Shown piece by piece: positions 2,174 to 23,432 of a DNA stretch of 26,151 nt (positions are counted from its first letter, which is position 1; every line of letters starts with the position of its first letter). Source of the DNA: a virus; IMG/VR virus record IMGVR_UViG_3300044940_000039, positions 1-26,151 of that record; one strand, written 5' to 3'. A model generated the notes under the pieces. The model was not told the DNA's origin and ran no database searches. It saw nothing but the letters and a program-made list of their open reading frames with translations. The position numbers were made by a program, and so were the translations under genes.

Positions 2174-2479
2174 TCACTTGGGCTGACCATTGGAAATGGC
2201 GCGCAGGATCGCGTTCGTCTCGCGCTGCACCAGTTTCAGCTCGTCAAGACTTTCCTTGATCCCGTCCAGCCTCGCCGCCATCGACGATTGGCTGTTTTCG
2301 ACCGACCGCAGGCGAATGTCCGACCCGACCGCCGCCGCCTCCATTTTCGACAGCCGCGCGTCGATATGGTCTACGGACCCGCTCAGCTCGCCCCACGCGA
2401 CCGCCATCGCGACGGCCATCGCAGCCAGCGGGATCAGCGTGCCGAGGTTGAATTCGAACTTCATCTGCGGGCCGGGCAT
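2174..2479 (-). CDS. Membrane-anchored coiled-coil protein, possible holin
   Basis: The 101-residue product has one transmembrane helix near the N-terminus (about residues 13-30, GTLIPLAAMAVAMAVAWG) followed by a long heptad-like region (VDHIDARLSKMEAAA ... ARLDGIKESLDELKLVQ) to the C-terminus. ATG 2479 is preceded by AGGA at seven bases; the in-frame ATG at 2464 is less well placed. It overlaps the amidase region by GTGA if the amidase uses its upstream start. Phage proteins of this one-TM plus coiled-coil design adjacent to an endolysin are often annotated as holin-like or as DUF2730-type hypotheticals. The function is therefore inferred from location only. Confidence 0.75.
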   Translation of the reverse strand: MPGPQMKFEFNLGTLIPLAAMAVAMAVAWGELSGSVDHIDARLSKMEAAAVGSDIRLRSVENSQSSMAARLDGIKESLDELKLVQRETNAILRAISNGQPK

Positions 2480-2530
2480 TGTCTGGTCCTGGGTAGGTGT
2501 GGCAACGGGAGTGGTGTCGTCGGACGGCGG

Positions 2531-2788
2531 TCAGCAGTCTGCCTCGATGTAGTGGCTGACGACAGCCATGCCGATGACCGACGAGGTGCCGCCCACGCTG
2601 AAATAACTGCAGGGCGCCAGCAACTGCGTCGCGGCCGGAATGTCGGTCGTGACCGTTCCCGTCGCCACCGCGCCCAGCATAACACCAACCGCTCCGATAG
2701 TCAGCACCACTCCTGCACCGGTGCGCGCGACCAGACCCTCGACCAGCGCCTGCAATCGGGCTATCTGTGCGTTTTCTCGCGGAGTCAC
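2531..2788 (-). CDS. Small membrane protein of the tail/lysis junction
   Basis: The 85-residue product starts at GTG 2788 with a short helical segment (NAQIARLQALVEGLVA) followed by a hydrophobic segment (GAGVVLTIGAVGVMLGAVATG, about residues 24-44) and a mixed C-terminal part ending SHYIEADC. It lies between the last fibre-like gene and the coiled-coil membrane protein. I recognise no family. It may be another lysis-related membrane protein or a minor virion protein. The Cys pair (one mid-protein, one at the very C-terminus) is visible but of unknown meaning. Confidence 0.7.
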   Translation of the reverse strand: MTPRENAQIARLQALVEGLVARTGAGVVLTIGAVGVMLGAVATGTVTTDIPAATQLLAPCSYFSVGGTSSVIGMAVVSHYIEADC

Positions 2789-2799
2789 GGTGCCTTGCC

Positions 2800-3507
2800 T
2801 CAGATGCGCAATATCGACCCGCCTATCGCCAGAACCGTCGATCCTGCTCGGAGAAGCCGCGGCGATCCACCGACCGGAAGCGAAAACGAAATCGCCGCCA
2901 GCATGTCATTGACATAAAACCCGCTCGTCCAGGTTGCAGTAATCGTCCTGCCGGTCTCGGCGGCCAGATCGTGGTCCGACGCGCCTGAGACCGAGTAGTT
3001 GTTCCAGACAGACGCCACGTCGAAGTCCTCGGTGGCGAGGCCGCCCCACGTCACGGAGCCGGCAGAGTACTGGCGCTGGGTTATGGCCAGCACGTTCCCG
3101 CCGTCCGGGATATCGAGGCTGACCGAAAACGTATCGCCCGACTCCGTAAAACTGGCCGCGCTGTCGTGGTAGGTTGGCTCGCCATCGCAGACCGCGACGA
3201 ACACGAGGGTGTCGTAAACCCAGGCGGTGTGAGTCAACACGATGTCAGCCGTCGAGCCGGAAGCAATCGCCACGCGCCAGAACGAGACAATCGGGGACAA
3301 TCCGCTATTGAATTCGCTGCTGATCCGCTCCGCCGACTCGCCCCCAACCGTCACGGCGCTGAGCGACCGACCCGATTCCGTGGCGGTGACGCAGCAGAGG
3401 ATCAGCCAGCGGTCCGCACTCGGCGTGCCGATGTCCACGCCGGTGTGGGTATGAGTTGGACTGTAAGCGGCATGAAAGCTGTAGGAGAACCACGGCGCGG
3501 CATGCAT
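2800..3507 (-). CDS. Putative tail appendage or minor tail protein
   Basis: The 235-residue protein lies three bases after the large tail fibre. It consists mainly of short beta-strand-like segments rich in Ser, Thr, Val and Gly (for example AVTVGGESAER, GDTFSVSLDIPDGG, GRTITATWTSG). This resembles the beta-sandwich or adhesin-like proteins found at the tips of siphovirus tails. There is no enzyme motif, signal peptide or clear coiled coil. Context (immediately downstream of the fibre, upstream of the lysis genes) suggests a secreted-side virion component or receptor-binding accessory. That role is an inference from composition and neighbourhood. Confidence 0.82.
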   Translation of the reverse strand: MHAAPWFSYSFHAAYSPTHTHTGVDIGTPSADRWLILCCVTATESGRSLSAVTVGGESAERISSEFNSGLSPIVSFWRVAIASGSTADIVLTHTAWVYDTLVFVAVCDGEPTYHDSAASFTESGDTFSVSLDIPDGGNVLAITQRQYSAGSVTWGGLATEDFDVASVWNNYSVSGASDHDLAAETGRTITATWTSGFYVNDMLAAISFSLPVGGSPRLLRAGSTVLAIGGSILRI

Positions 3508-3510
3508 CGC

Positions 3511-6162
3511 TCACCCCCTCGCCCTGTTGAACCCGGCTACCGTGCCGATGCCCAGCATGTAGAGGATGCCAATTTCGACGTCCGTCGTGCTGGCCTCGGT
3601 CGCCACGATCCCGGCGCCGAAACCCTGCGCAGACGTGGCAGGAATGTTGCTCGTGATCGTCACGTCGAACACCGTTGACGTGCCGGCGCCTTGATAGACG
3701 CGGAAGCGAACCTCTGTTCCCGCCGCGTTGCTCTCGATGTCGAAAACATAGGGCGTGTCGAGGATGAGGTTCAAAGACCCGGCAGTAGTGCGGATGGAGT
3801 TGCTCGCGGTCTTGGCAACGAGCGCGTCTCCGATTGCCTCGAAATACGCACCGTCCGTAGCGTCCGCGCTGGATTCCGTATCGAGAAACCCCATTCGCAC
3901 GGTCCTGCCCGTAAACGCCGTTCGCCACAGGAATGAACACCGGAACTTGTAGGGAACGACACCGAAATACATCCCCGTTGGACTGGAGGTCTGATAGCGA
4001 TATCCGCCGTTCTCCGTAGTGCCGGACCGCAGGAACACACCGTTCTGGTTGTAGCCAAACACTGCTGCGCTGGGGATCGCCGCTGTGTTGGTACCGCCGC
4101 TGACCGCCGCACCCACGAAGACCGCACTGCCGCCGACGTTGTTGCTGCCGAACCAATCTTCTGACCAGTAATCCCAATTGCCGAGCGCAGCAACGCCGCC
4201 GGTAGCCGAGAGCGTGGTGCCGGAGAGGGACAGGCCGGATCCGACTTCCAGCCAAGCCATGCCGGACGCCGACTGATCGTAAAACAGGATGCGGTCCGCG
4301 CCGGGCACAGTCAGGTCGGTCGCGCCGTCCAGCGTCACCCCGTTCAGGTCAATTGCATCGACGTGCGCGGCCGCGAACCTGTTGGCCGAGGAACCCAGAT
4401 TGCGCGTGCCGTCTGCGTCGGGCACGATGTTCGCGTCAACCGGGTCGCTCCACGAGATGCCGCCCCCGCCGCCCGGCGGCGAAGCCCAGGTTCCATCGGC
4501 CCGCAGGAAATTCGTCGTGCCACCACCGGACGCAGGCACAAGGCCCTTGAGCGACGAGGTGAACGTGTCCAGAAGCGCGGTTGCCTGCGCCCCGGTCAGA
4601 TCCTCGGGGTCGCCCGTGCCTGCGCTGGCTCGCCCCTTGATCGTGCCGGTGGCCATGCCGGCCAGCTTCGCATTGGTCACGGCACCGGCGGCAATGGTGG
4701 TCGCGCCGTCGCCGACGCTCGTCACGTCTCCGGTGTGGTTGGGGTGGCTGTAGTTGTTCGCCCCATTGGCCACCCCGTCCAGCTTGGTCTTGTCGGCGGC
4801 GGACATGAACCCTGCGACCGAGGTCGTTGCCTCCGCGTGCAGTGCTCCGCCGCCTCTGTTGCCGTGGGATGTGTCGGTGAACCGTGCTGCCGGAAGGGTG
4901 CCCGTGGTCAGATCGCTGGCCGAGCCACTGGTAGCCACTGCGGCAAGCCCGGTGATCGTCGAGGCGGGCTGGGTGCCGGTATGCGTCGCCCGATCCCGCA
5001 GCGCCGCATCCGAGGCATTCGCGGTCGCTCCATCCGCCACATTCAGGATGGCCCGCGCCTGGGCCGGGGTCAGCACTTCCGGCGCTCCGGTTCCAGCACT
5101 GTCGCGTCCCAGGAAGCTGTCGGTGGGCACGTCAGCAAGCTTGCTCAGCGTCACGGCACCTGCATCGATCGTCCAGACCGTGCCAGAGCCAGACACCGTT
5201 ATGTCGCCCTTGTCGCCGTCGCTGACTCCGCCGCCGCCGCCGGCAGGAGGCGCTGCCCACACCCCGTCCGCGCGCAGGAAATTCGTCGTTCCGCCCCCGG
5301 ATGCGGGGGCAAGGCCCTTCGCGCTCGCGGTGAAGGTATCAAGCAGCGCCGTCTGCGCCGCGGCATCGGCGGACGTGAGAATGGCGCGGCCTGCGGCAGT
5401 GCTGTCAGATATATCTGCCGCTACGTGCTGGTGCGCCTGCGGCGGGAACGTCGTGGGTCTGCCCGTCAGGTCGCTCCACGCCCCACTCGTTGCGATCGCC
5501 GCCAGCCCGGTAATCGTCGAGGCCGGCTGCGTGCCGGTATGCGTGGCGCGATCCCTGAGCGCTGCGTCAGTTGCGTTTGCCGTCGCTCCGGGCTCGATCG
5601 AATCAAGCTTGGATTTGTCCGCCGCACTCAGAAACCCGCTCTGCGTCGTCGTGGCAGTAGCGTGCAGACTGCCGCCGCCGCGTGCGCCGTGCGAACCGTC
5701 GTCGAATCTGGCGGCTGGAATCGTCCCGCTCGACAGATCGCTGGCCGAGCCACTGGTGGCGATCGGCGCGAACGCAGGCGCGCTCACCACGTCACCCCAC
5801 GGTATCGGGTCACCGGGCTGCAGTGCTGTCTCAGCGAGTGCGCCCTGCGCCGCCGTGGCTCGCGCGTCAAGAGCCGACTGCAAATCGATCTGATCAGACA
5901 GAGTGCCGGTTATCGCGCCCCAGACAGCTCCGCCGCCGCCTCCCGGCGCAGCGACCCAACCGGTGTCGTAATCGGTTGCGCTCAGTTTTGTCAGAACTGT
6001 TCCGACCCCGCCGCCTGGCGGGACGCCGACGCCTGGCGGCCCCTGGATACCGACTTCGGATATCAATACGTTGTACGGAGCGCAGGTGGCCTGCACCACG
6101 TATTGCACAGTGCCGGACACTGTCACTGTCGGCCCGGATACGATATTGACTTCGACGCGCAT
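3511..6162 (-). CDS. Large tail fibre / receptor-binding protein with internal repeats
   Basis: The 883-residue protein is the largest in the window. Residues 37-55 contain a short collagen-like stretch (GIQGPPGVGVPPGGGVG). Residues about 75-570 form a repetitive shaft: modules with SGSASDL, PAARF, SHG.RGGG, AADK.KLD, DAALRDRATHTGTQPAS and LLDTFT recur, separated by Gly-runs. Residues about 665-883 form a non-repetitive beta-rich domain (YFGVVPYKFRCSFLWR, RMGFLDTESS, DGAYFEAIGD) that resembles jelly-roll head domains of phage fibres and probably binds the host receptor. The start overlaps the previous stop by one base (TGATG). No reverse transcriptase or variable-repeat cassette is present, so diversity-generating retroelement control is not indicated. 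Confidence 0.93.
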   Translation of the reverse strand: MRVEVNIVSGPTVTVSGTVQYVVQATCAPYNVLISEVGIQGPPGVGVPPGGGVGTVLTKLSATDYDTGWVAAPGGGGGAVWGAITGTLSDQIDLQSALDARATAAQGALAETALQPGDPIPWGDVVSAPAFAPIATSGSASDLSSGTIPAARFDDGSHGARGGGSLHATATTTQSGFLSAADKSKLDSIEPGATANATDAALRDRATHTGTQPASTITGLAAIATSGAWSDLTGRPTTFPPQAHQHVAADISDSTAAGRAILTSADAAAQTALLDTFTASAKGLAPASGGGTTNFLRADGVWAAPPAGGGGGVSDGDKGDITVSGSGTVWTIDAGAVTLSKLADVPTDSFLGRDSAGTGAPEVLTPAQARAILNVADGATANASDAALRDRATHTGTQPASTITGLAAVATSGSASDLTTGTLPAARFTDTSHGNRGGGALHAEATTSVAGFMSAADKTKLDGVANGANNYSHPNHTGDVTSVGDGATTIAAGAVTNAKLAGMATGTIKGRASAGTGDPEDLTGAQATALLDTFTSSLKGLVPASGGGTTNFLRADGTWASPPGGGGGISWSDPVDANIVPDADGTRNLGSSANRFAAAHVDAIDLNGVTLDGATDLTVPGADRILFYDQSASGMAWLEVGSGLSLSGTTLSATGGVAALGNWDYWSEDWFGSNNVGGSAVFVGAAVSGGTNTAAIPSAAVFGYNQNGVFLRSGTTENGGYRYQTSSPTGMYFGVVPYKFRCSFLWRTAFTGRTVRMGFLDTESSADATDGAYFEAIGDALVAKTASNSIRTTAGSLNLILDTPYVFDIESNAAGTEVRFRVYQGAGTSTVFDVTITSNIPATSAQGFGAGIVATEASTTDVEIGILYMLGIGTVAGFNRARG
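4474..5754 (-). repeat. Duplicated modules within the tail-fibre gene
   Basis: Three protein modules each occur twice inside the fibre shaft. DNA positions are 5602-5754 and 4777-4929 (SGSASDL to AADK.KLD), 5461-5583 and 4900-5022 (DAALRDRATHTGTQPAS to SDLT), and 5248-5343 and 4474-4572 (LLDTFT to the Gly-run). The order differs between the copies: the first array reads B-A-C and the second A-B-C with A and B overlapping. By eye the DNA copies are roughly 80 percent identical, with short perfectly conserved stretches. This fits an older duplication or recombination between related fibre modules rather than a recent tandem duplication. Confidence 0.85.
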
Positions 6163-19924: not shown

Positions 19925-20368
19925 CTATGCCGCGCTACTGGAAACCTTCTCTGCGCAGCCGATGCGTTCGGCCTTGATCTCAGAGAACGTCCGTCCGTCG
20001 CCATCGAGGATCGCGTCGTCCCAAACCGCGATCTCTGTCAGCCGGTTGTCGGCGATGACGTATGCCCGCTTCTGCGCGTCGGACCAGCCCGACGCCACCA
20101 TGCACGGGACGCTCTCGATCCCGAGTTTCTGCGCGGCCATGACCCTGCAGTGCCCGGCGATGATGACGCCATCATCGTCCACAAGGACAGGCACGGTCCA
20201 CCCCCATTCCTTGATTGACGCGGCGATCTGCGAAACTTGCTGCTCGGAATGAACGCGGCTGTTCCGCGCGTAAGGGATGAGTTCCGCAACCGGACGCATC
20301 GTCACCCTGGCCGCAGGCCACCTGTTATAGTCCATTCGACCCCCAGTCAGAATTCCGGCTTTGCGCAC
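19925..20368 (-). CDS. ParB/Srx-fold domain protein without a partner domain
   Basis: The protein has the ParB N-terminal fold: LIPYARNSRVHSEQQVSQIAASIKEWGW, then PVLVDDDGVIIAGHCRVMAAQKLG with the GHxR motif, and SDAQKRAYVIADNRLTE. In many alphaproteobacterial phages this domain is fused to a DNA methyltransferase or a longer C-terminal region. Here it ends about 30 residues later (WDDAILDGDGRTF ... EKVSSSAA), eight bases before TerS. GTG 20368, which has GGGGAG six bases upstream, is my preferred start; ATG 20335 is the alternative. It overlaps the HNH gene. DNA-binding, CTP-dependent or nuclease roles are all possible. Confidence 0.85.
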   Translation of the reverse strand: MRKAGILTGGRMDYNRWPAARVTMRPVAELIPYARNSRVHSEQQVSQIAASIKEWGWTVPVLVDDDGVIIAGHCRVMAAQKLGIESVPCMVASGWSDAQKRAYVIADNRLTEIAVWDDAILDGDGRTFSEIKAERIGCAEKVSSSAA

Positions 20369-20786
20369 AAATGGCTCCCCGCGCGGTCCCCATCGGCGAG
20401 CTTCCCAGGATTTCAGCGCCCCCCGGCCGGTCAGACGGCCGAGTGATCGGGTATCCGTCCAGCCCGACAGGGCGATACGCTTCCTTGGCGCGGGCTATGG
20501 CCTCGGCGTCGTCGCCGTGCCGCACCTCGATTGCGTGGCACACGCTGTCGTGGCAGCGCTTGCAGACCGCCCACGTGTTGGCCGGGTCCAGGAACAGGTC
20601 CGGCCGCAGCCTCGCCGGACGCTTGTGGTCCACGACTGCCGCGCGATGGTCGCGCTTGCCGCTCGACAGCAGGACGCCGCACATCTGGCAGGAGTATAGA
20701 TCGCGCTTCAGGATCTGCCGCCTGTGCCATTCCCAGGCCGATGTTTTGTATCGCGCCATGCTATCCGTGATTGGCGGATTCGCCAC
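20325..20786 (-). CDS. HNH endonuclease
   Basis: The product has the HNH layout: Cys33-x2-Cys36 (CQMC), Asp53-His54 in VVDHKRPARL, Asn70 in DPANTWAVC, and Cys75-x2-Cys78-His79 (CKRCH). The paired CxxC motifs would hold a structural zinc and the DH...N...H positions the catalytic metal. I prefer GTG 20786, with GGAG five bases upstream; ATG 20759 (MARYKTSAWEW) is also possible. HNH proteins beside terminase genes assist cos cleavage in HK97-type phages. The last 14 or more codons overlap the ParB-like gene. Confidence 0.9.
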   Translation of the reverse strand: MANPPITDSMARYKTSAWEWHRRQILKRDLYSCQMCGVLLSSGKRDHRAAVVDHKRPARLRPDLFLDPANTWAVCKRCHDSVCHAIEVRHGDDAEAIARAKEAYRPVGLDGYPITRPSDRPGGAEILGSSPMGTARGAICAQSRNSDWGSNGL

Positions 20787-20961
20787 GCTGGCTCCGCCTT
20801 GCCTCGATTGCACTCGTCGCCGTTGGGCGCGGTGTCGCTCCTGGTGCTGCAGTTTCGCCCGGCCAGGCCCGGACCTCATGACCGATCAGCAGCGTTCGTT
20901 TTCAGGGGCGCGTCGCCCGATCATAGCGATCATTTACCGCGAAACAGGCAGAAATGTCACG

Positions 20962-21354
20962 TCAAATTTTCGGCGGCTTTCTCGCGTTCAGCTTCCGTTC
21001 CAGCGTGATCAGCGCGGCGACCCACCGACGCCACGCTGACTGTCGAACCATGCCGACCTCGATGCAGATCTCGCGCCAGCGCCAGCCTTCTGCGCGCATC
21101 CAGAGGATCTTCGCGTCGATCGGCTGCACGAGCCGCATCCAGCCGAGGCATTCCTCCATCCGTGAGATTTCGGCGGCTGTCGGGACAACGCGAACGTGCG
21201 CATTGTGGTATCCGTAGGCGTGCCTTGCCTCGCGCACGTATTCCGGCCACGAGCTGCCGTATCCGCGCGGGCCGCTGCCGGCTGGATTTGGGAGCCGCCG
21301 CAGGGTCAGCGCGGCTTCCTCGAGCCTGGCCTCGATTTCGTCGCGGGTGATCAT
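20962..21354 (-). CDS. DUF6362 family protein
   Basis: The 130-residue protein starts at ATG 21354, overlapping the upstream stop as ATGA. It contains LEEAALTLRRLP, GYGSSWPEYVREARHAYGY, PTAAEISRMEECLGWMRLV, DAKILWMRAEGWRWREICIEVG and SAWRRWVAALITLERKLN, the layout of the DUF6362 family found in phages and prophages of alphaproteobacteria near packaging genes. The central EICIEVGMVRQSAWRRW part looks like a helix-turn-helix, so DNA binding, perhaps as a late regulator, is plausible. No function is established here. The 175 bases downstream (20787-20961) contain no recognisable gene, only tiny ORFs. Confidence 0.87.
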   Translation of the reverse strand: MITRDEIEARLEEAALTLRRLPNPAGSGPRGYGSSWPEYVREARHAYGYHNAHVRVVPTAAEISRMEECLGWMRLVQPIDAKILWMRAEGWRWREICIEVGMVRQSAWRRWVAALITLERKLNARKPPKI

Positions 21355-21773
21355 GTGCTTCCTGCCGCGCCTCCACAGAGCCACGGAGAGCGCCGCTGAG
21401 CGGCCTTTAGCCACTCGGGCGCATCCACCCACCGAAAGCCGCCCATGTGCGGCTCTATGGCCGCCTGCGGCTTTCCTGCGACCCATGTTCTCTCCATCGC
21501 CATTCCCTGGCTGTCCTCCCAGCCGTGGAGGTGCAGATAAATCACCGCATCGGCCGCGCGCACCCATTGTCGGTTCCAGTCGGCCCAGGCTGCTGCGTTG
21601 GTCGGCAACAGGTGCCTGCCGGCGATCAGGTGCCAGTGGGCGATCGGCGACATGGGCAGCAGCCCTTGCCGCGCGAGCCAGGCGCACGCATCGCCTGCCG
21701 CTCGGGCGCGGTCCTCCATCACGGCCGGCGACTGGTGGGTATACGGGCTGCTGACGAAGACTGTCATGGTCAT
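21351..21773 (-). CDS. DUF1937 family protein (nucleoside deoxyribosyltransferase-like)
   Basis: The 140-residue product opens VFVSSPYTHQSPAVMEDRARAAGDACAWLARQG, the (A/S)SPY(T/S)H signature of DUF1937, followed by PMSPIAHWHLIA and a helix-loop with DAVIYLHLHGWEDSQGMAMERTWV. DUF1937 is related to nucleoside 2-deoxyribosyltransferases, which bind nucleotides in a Rossmann-like pocket, so a nucleotide-salvage or modified-base role is possible. The ATG overlaps the stop of the 37-aa gene as ATGA, and its stop overlaps DUF6362 likewise. A GAGG eight bases upstream may be the ribosome site. Confidence 0.9.
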   Translation of the reverse strand: MTMTVFVSSPYTHQSPAVMEDRARAAGDACAWLARQGLLPMSPIAHWHLIAGRHLLPTNAAAWADWNRQWVRAADAVIYLHLHGWEDSQGMAMERTWVAGKPQAAIEPHMGGFRWVDAPEWLKAAQRRSPWLCGGAAGST

Positions 21774-21883
21774 GGGTGGGCCTCAAAATGGGATTTCGTC
21801 GTCGAGATCAGCGGCCGTGGCCATGATGCGCGCCGCTCGGGCTGCGAGGCGTCGAGCGCCTGCCAGTCGATGGGGGTGCTCAT
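21770..21883 (-). CDS. 37-aa microgene holding an out-of-frame SSB-like tail
   Basis: ATG 21883 overlaps the stop of the winged-helix gene as ATGA, and TGA 21770-21772 overlaps the DUF1937 start as ATGA, so the 37-codon frame (beginning MSTPIDWQALDASQPERRAS) fits perfectly between its neighbours. In the -1 frame the same DNA reads [19 protein letters not shown] and stops at 21783. That ending is the acidic SSB C-terminal tip. A gene that started as MSTPIDWQALDA and finished DDEIPF would be similarly placed, with its stop merging into the GAGG ribosome site of DUF1937. A frameshift mutation, programmed frameshift or dual coding are all possible. Confidence 0.5.
   Translation of the reverse strand: MSTPIDWQALDASQPERRASWPRPLISTTKSHFEAHP
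21781..21809 (-). repeat. Near-duplicate of the SSB C-terminal coding sequence (copy 1)
   Basis: These 29 bases differ from 22963-22991 at only two positions. On the minus strand both encode DLDDEIPF followed by TGA and GG. The copy at 22963-22991 is the genuine end of ssb. This copy lies inside the 37-aa microgene, in a different frame from it. Confidence 0.85.
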
Positions 21884-22104
21884 TTTTTGGCTCCTGTCAC
21901 CACGTAGATTGCCGGCACGCCGCCACAGCGAGCGGTGATGACCTGCTTGAGCCGTCCCGACCTGGTCAGATCGCGGATGGCCTCGCGCGCGCCCTGCGGG
22001 GTCAGCTTGGCGTTGAGCGCAAGATCATTGGCGGTGATCTGGCGGCCGGCCATGCGGTCGAGAAAGCGGGCGATGGCGGTCTGGGTGGTGTTCGGGCGTG
22101 TCAT
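21880..22104 (-). CDS. Small winged-helix DNA-binding protein
   Basis: I place the start at ATG 22104, which has AAGGAG seven bases upstream; an upstream in-frame start at 22122 lacks this. The 74-residue product reads as a winged helix: TAIARFLDRMAGRQITANDLAL, then a recognition helix LTPQGAREAIRDLTRSGRLKQV, and a wing VITARCGGVPAIYVVTG. Such proteins in early phage operons often act as local transcription regulators. No closer family is recognised. The stop overlaps the 37-aa gene as ATGA. The target is unknown; the upstream early promoter is a candidate. Confidence 0.77.
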   Translation of the reverse strand: MTRPNTTQTAIARFLDRMAGRQITANDLALNAKLTPQGAREAIRDLTRSGRLKQVITARCGGVPAIYVVTGAKK

Positions 22105-22838: not shown

Positions 22839-22962
22839 CCAGGATGCCCCGCAGAGCCCACCAGTTGGCCCGTGGCGGACTTTGCGCCTTCGCGGGTGGG
22901 TGACATAGGGGCGCGGCTAGCGCGGCTGTAGGGCCGTCCTGTGGCCTCTACGAGGGTGGCCA

Positions 22963-22991
22963 CCTCAAAACGGGATTTCGTCGTCAAGATC
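22963..22991 (-). repeat. SSB C-terminal coding sequence (copy 2, genuine ssb end)
   Basis: This is the partner of 21781-21809, with 27 of 29 bases identical. It encodes the DLDDEIPF end of SSB, the stop codon and two further bases. Confidence 0.85.
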
Positions 22992-23432
22992 CGACCGCGC
23001 GCCGCCGCCGAAACCGCCGTCGCCCACGCCTCCAGCGCAGTCGTCCGTGCCAAACCGTTCGTCGCTTGCGCCGCCGTCGCTGCGAACATCGAGCACCGTC
23101 AGCCCGCCGCGATAGGGACGCAGCACAATTTCGGTCGTGTATCGATCCTGCCCGGCCTGGTCCTGCCACTTGCGGGTTTCAAGACGGCCTTCGATGTAGA
23201 CCTTCGCGCCCTTCTTCAGAAAATACTCGGCAATCCGCGCCTGCGGCTCGGAATAGATCACGACCGAATGCCACTCGGTCTTCTCGCGCCGCTCGCCGGT
23301 GGCCTTGTCGCGCCAGGTCTCGGAGGTGGCAATGCGCAGGTTCACCACCTTGCCGCCGTTCTGGAACGTCCGCACCTCGGGGTCGCGGCCGAGGTTGCCG
23401 ATCAGAATGACCTTGTTCACCGACCCCGCCAT
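22965..23432 (-). CDS. ssb: Single-stranded DNA-binding protein
   Basis: The 155-residue protein coats single-stranded DNA during phage replication and recombination. Residues 1-110 are a canonical OB-fold: [75 protein letters not shown], then YTTEIVL. A Gly/Asp-rich linker follows, and the C-terminus is DDEIPF, the acidic tip that binds SSB partner proteins. It starts at ATG 23432. A TTGACA-type promoter lies upstream, so ssb can be expressed apart from primase and helicase. Confidence 0.98.

Follow-up and report, generated by a model that had tools for sequence, protein, structure and literature searches.

A second SSB-type tail in an uncultured phage genome as a probable scar of module exchange

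The genome of an uncultured virus (an IMG/VR record of 26151 bases, referred to in full as the window) contains two stretches that encode the tail of a single-stranded DNA-binding protein, DLDDEIPF-stop: one at the end of its ssb gene and one further downstream. The second tail is probably a recombination scar: when phage modules were exchanged, an ssb or ssb-tailed gene would have been replaced, with only its 3' end staying behind. The genes concerned lie on the minus strand in the order helicase, primase, ssb, ORF98, XRE-type regulator, ORF74, a 37-aa ORF, DUF1937, DUF6362, HNH and ParB-like, followed by genes resembling terminase. Paracoccus phages carry the closest cultured relatives of the window ssb. 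The features around the joint are as follows.

22965–23432, minus strand: genuine ssb, 155 aa, with the first tail copy at 22965–22991 (PF00436, E = 1.6e-35; phrog_44)
21880–22104, minus strand: ORF74, 74 aa, the last intact gene before the joint (96% protein identity to L002)
21770–21883, minus strand: chimeric or truncated ORF, MSTPIDWQALDASQP...ISTTKSHFEAHP, 37 aa, its first 15 codons from a DUF1937 gene that is intact in L002
21783–21837, minus strand: foreign piece, 17 codons ending DLDDEIPF-stop, presumably the 3' terminus of an ssb or ssb-tailed gene since lost
21783–21824, minus strand: sole frame containing the tail that opens with an ATG, 13 aa, not preceded by a convincing ribosome-binding site
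21783–21809, minus strand: second tail copy, DLDDEIPF-stop (plus GG to 21781), whose TGAGG overlaps the presumed DUF1937 ribosome-binding site
21351–21773, minus strand: replacement DUF1937 gene (nucleoside deoxyribosyltransferase-like), 140 aa (PF09152, E = 2.7e-17; phrog_355)
19925–21354, minus strand: far-side module leading to terminase, with DUF6362 (20962–21354), HNH (20325–20879) and ParB-like (19925–20368) genes

The original prediction had placed the two tails about 1.2 kb apart, with a match of 27 out of 29 bases and the same minus-strand reading. Recomputation bore out each of these points: 21781–21809 and 22963–22991 match at 27 of 29 positions, lie 1182 bp apart and both read DLDDEIPF-stop. 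No other IPF-stop ends occur in the six frames of the window, for which composition predicts 5.6e-9 occurrences of DLDDEIPF-stop and 0.001 of any [DE][DE][ILV]PF-stop. The former figure rules out a chance origin of the second tail, and to judge from the sequence the two copies would need a common origin at the protein level. The eight residues of the second copy are those of the canonical SSB tip (DDDIPF in E. coli), complete to the stop and undecayed. Unlike a true SSB C terminus, however, the second tail has no OB-fold domain ahead of it, only 17 foreign codons behind the start of a displaced DUF1937 gene, and it is known from DNA alone. Other 27/29 repeats in the window were confined to a long, repetitive gene (3511–6162), in which near-identical 29-bp direct repeats at 4907–5760 (near 4.9–5.7 kb) probably correspond to protein repeats of a tail-fibre-like product.

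The position of the second tail was defined by comparison with L002/G001, the only relative found for ORF74. Across window 22114–21835, this relative is about 99% identical, with 277/280 bases matching by one count and four mismatches in 280 bp by the other (98.6% by blastn); three of the four mismatches fall within ORF74 and one at the breakpoint itself (21837). Homology then ends at 21837/21838, with 15/55 identity beyond, and the second tail starts 28 bp past the breakpoint, directly before the new module. The breakpoint lies within a DUF1937 gene. In L002, the ORF beginning MSTPIDWQALDASQP runs on to 158 aa and is an intact DUF1937 gene (PF09152, E = 5.6e-23), whereas in the window it is truncated after 15 shared codons; the displaced and replacement DUF1937 proteins are distant homologues with 35% identity over 66 residues. 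An abrupt loss of homology inside a gene that is whole in a relative would mark this place as a recombination joint of the kind that makes phages mosaic. Past its DUF1937 gene, G001 has a terminase and a portal unlike those of the window (genes named by reading translations), and blastn found nothing shared between the two besides the 280-bp stretch. Because G001 leads into a different terminase and portal, G001 and the window phage are mosaics.

Two further joints were found at the end of the genuine ssb. G003 is 86% identical to the window from helicase to ssb, and its homology ends at 22961, four bases past the ssb stop; homology to L042 ends at 22956, within ten bases of the same stop. With both ending near the ssb stop, joints recur at the end of ssb; a third joint holds the second tail copy. 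The window sequence that follows ssb at 22943–22834, which has no clear gene, is 87% identical to L042 746–855. The matching L042 block follows a winged-helix-like gene, which means that a gene was gained or lost exactly where ssb ends. The ORF98-XRE pair (window 22703–22201) also occurs in G003 at 43370–43866 with 73% DNA identity, where it is on the opposite strand some 9 kb away from ssb, as a two-gene unit that has moved.

Gene order in relatives indicates what the far-side module may once have followed. In L046, a DUF1937 gene stands directly after ssb. The ssb gene lies upstream of a ParB-like gene by about 1.7 kb in L042, 2.1 kb in L044 and 2.0 kb in L099, and in Paracoccus phage Shpa the distance from ssb down to ParB is about 1.4 kb and includes HNH. 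In the window, the second tail is 1.4 kb upstream of ParB, with DUF1937, DUF6362 and HNH between, and thus appears to sit where an ssb would have stood relative to the far-side module. As an alternative, the original prediction had named a recombination scar involving another ssb-like gene, and the breakpoint 28 bp away and the presence of ssb at the matching place in relatives support this.

We propose that an early module (helicase, primase, ssb, ORF98, XRE, ORF74 and the first DUF1937 codons) was joined at 21837/21838 to a module from another phage. The incoming module would have carried the last 17 codons of the gene that formerly preceded it, most likely that phage's own ssb, and after them the donor's own DUF1937-DUF6362-HNH-ParB-terminase block. 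One DUF1937 gene would thereby have replaced another, and the genuine window ssb would have arrived with the early module. The TGAGG of the second copy is suitably positioned to serve the new DUF1937 gene as ribosome-binding site, and perhaps the leftover tail was kept because it forms that site. On the most parsimonious reading, the tail piece would be a recent scar without function. The window would then document a module swap in which one DUF1937 gene was exchanged for another and an ssb-tail fragment left behind, and it suggests that joints recur at the 3' ends of ssb genes, which offer conserved codons and a TGAGG. A leftover from a gene-block swap is an ordinary event in phage evolution and indicates no new function.

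A comparable case is mycobacteriophage Island3, in which the last 18 residues of gp68 are closely related to the end of its upstream neighbor, at the DNA level too, and the relationship was ascribed to recombination (PMC3029335). As in Island3 genes 68 and 67, the window has a small ORF near C-terminal codons repeated from a nearby upstream gene, consistent with modules having been exchanged by recombination at a short sequence common to both. The Island3 repeat, however, is about 50 bp long and encodes the C terminus of the small gene itself (85 aa), whereas in the window only 29 bp are repeated and the small ORF reads them in another frame. The Island3 study considers short boundary sequences as well as illegitimate recombination among the origins of mosaic joints (PMC3029335). 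The window joint resembles other phage mosaic joints at gene boundaries in that homology stops abruptly near a gene end and the flanking modules differ, but here one gene is cut short and a fragment of another retained.

The original prediction had called the second segment a copy of the ssb tail. The tail is real and beyond chance, but its DNA identity is no proof of copying from the neighboring ssb. The 27/29 match covers the codons of the tail with their stop, takes in two bases of a GAGG ribosome-binding site, and extends no further. When 15 distinct DLDDEIPF-stop tails from the fetched loci were compared, a small sample, at least 25 of 27 bases were shared in 15% of pairs, and seven of the 15 continued with TGAGG. 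Because such identity is ordinary once the residues are fixed, the two tails need not reflect a duplication inside the window phage. Direct duplication of the 3' end of the phage's own ssb would account for the 27/29 identity within one record, but the ssb end of L042 fits the second copy better (29/29), and copying from the neighboring ssb was rejected because the similarity ends at the tail and its ribosome-binding site and synonymous identity at this level is common among unrelated tails; we regard an origin by self-duplication as very unlikely. Somewhat less improbable, though still unlikely, is that the joint is a metagenome assembly chimera of co-occurring phages. The window is an uncultured virus record, a single metagenome (3300044998) supplied all three of its nearest relatives (L002, L042 and L043), and the G001 contig starts within the 280-bp shared stretch, a pattern typical of assembly branch points. 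Nevertheless, phages of this sort normally have the gene order that runs across the joint (replication, regulator, HNH, ParB, terminase), mismatches between the contigs over the 280 bp show that they came from different templates, and a foreign side that starts in mid-gene is equally expected of a biological joint. The same scar could also derive, by the same mechanism, from a phage gene other than ssb that bears an SSB-like tail: DUF6511, a single-strand annealing protein or a family of 216–224 aa. Candidates exist, including DUF6511 near DUF6362 in L037, the family upstream of DUF6362 in L030, L035 and L039, an annealing-type protein in L111 and the SSB-like-tailed proteins of L130 and L132. 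Directly before DUF1937, however, only ssb was found (L046), ssb also stands just upstream of ParB modules in several relatives, and DUF6511 was present in 1 of 50 records, so it is plausible but rare. A donor of this kind is possible, and clearly the less favored option; we consider it rather likely that the donor gene was an ssb, the remainder falling to another ssb-tailed gene. The nine residues before the second tail are not distinctively SSB-like. No donor emerged when viral and genome collections were queried with the DUF1937 protein, when phage and plasmid collections were queried by DNA, or when the 10-residue tail end plus stop was sought; nor did one emerge from a search for the tail followed by a DUF1937-like start, in which one pattern required a PY-S/T-H motif and particular codons and so would miss donors with other codons. 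The donor-side context appeared in the searched collections only as the same gene order with other sequences (L046).

The leading idea of the original prediction was that the second tail could yield a peptide, or a fusion, able to compete for the partners of SSB. Such a product would be either a working 13-aa micropeptide or a frameshift fusion with the 37-aa ORF. The SSB tip is described in PMC10164576 as the docking place of many SSB partners, and a tip peptide on its own might bind the same partners; there are small phage proteins ending in DLDDEIPF, for example a 71-aa frame of L132, and the exact, complete tail would suit such a role. A recent origin at the joint suffices to account for the undecayed residues, however, and the setting offers no support for the suggestion. 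The 37-aa ORF has a good ribosome-binding site (AGGAG before its ATG), but it reads the tail DNA as ISTTKSHFEAHP, in a frame other than that of the tail, and its stop overlaps the start of the replacement DUF1937 gene; no family match was found for it. The tail frame is open for 37 codons, and its sole start codon is the ATG at 21824, 13 codons before the stop, ahead of which no convincing ribosome-binding site was seen by eye. A slippery heptamer was sought in the ORF overlapping the tail and none was found, and a programmed frameshift into the tail frame was rejected on that ground. The original prediction itself took absence of the tail from related phages as refuting a functional peptide, and the second tail is missing from the two nearest relatives: from G001, and from the 16 kb of G003 examined, where the only such tail is that of ssb. 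The tail frame of the second copy is therefore probably not translated. We think a micropeptide or fusion highly improbable, and equally so that a free 13-residue SSB-tip peptide, derived from a joint at an ssb end, competes with SSB for its partners during infection. A literature search on SSB-tip mimic peptides returned nothing relevant.

Of the ssb loci examined, L111 alone showed another IPF-type tail, carried by a protein other than SSB. This protein (2465–3320, upstream of ssb) resembles a single-strand annealing protein by eye and ends like the adjoining ssb; it had no Pfam match. SSB-tip-like ends also occur on DUF6511 (PF20121) proteins, which are zinc-finger-like and end in TPDDVPF, YSDDIPF or SEVPF, and in which the PF20121 profile match runs to its last position. 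Proteins with tails of this type are encoded at L037 690–1047, L156 2489–2836, L157 2501–2845 and L130 7297–7906; the L130 protein, a possible distant DUF6511 relative below the cut-off, ends in DLDDEIPF. Judged by these ends, DUF6511 may be a non-SSB family that shares SSB docking sites, and none of the papers searched names it. Finally, the family of 216–224 aa open frames upstream of DUF6362 (L030 2967–3642, L035 3523–4174 and L039 3603–4278) ends in DWERGDEIPF or similar and is a possible SSB-tip mimic outside SSB.
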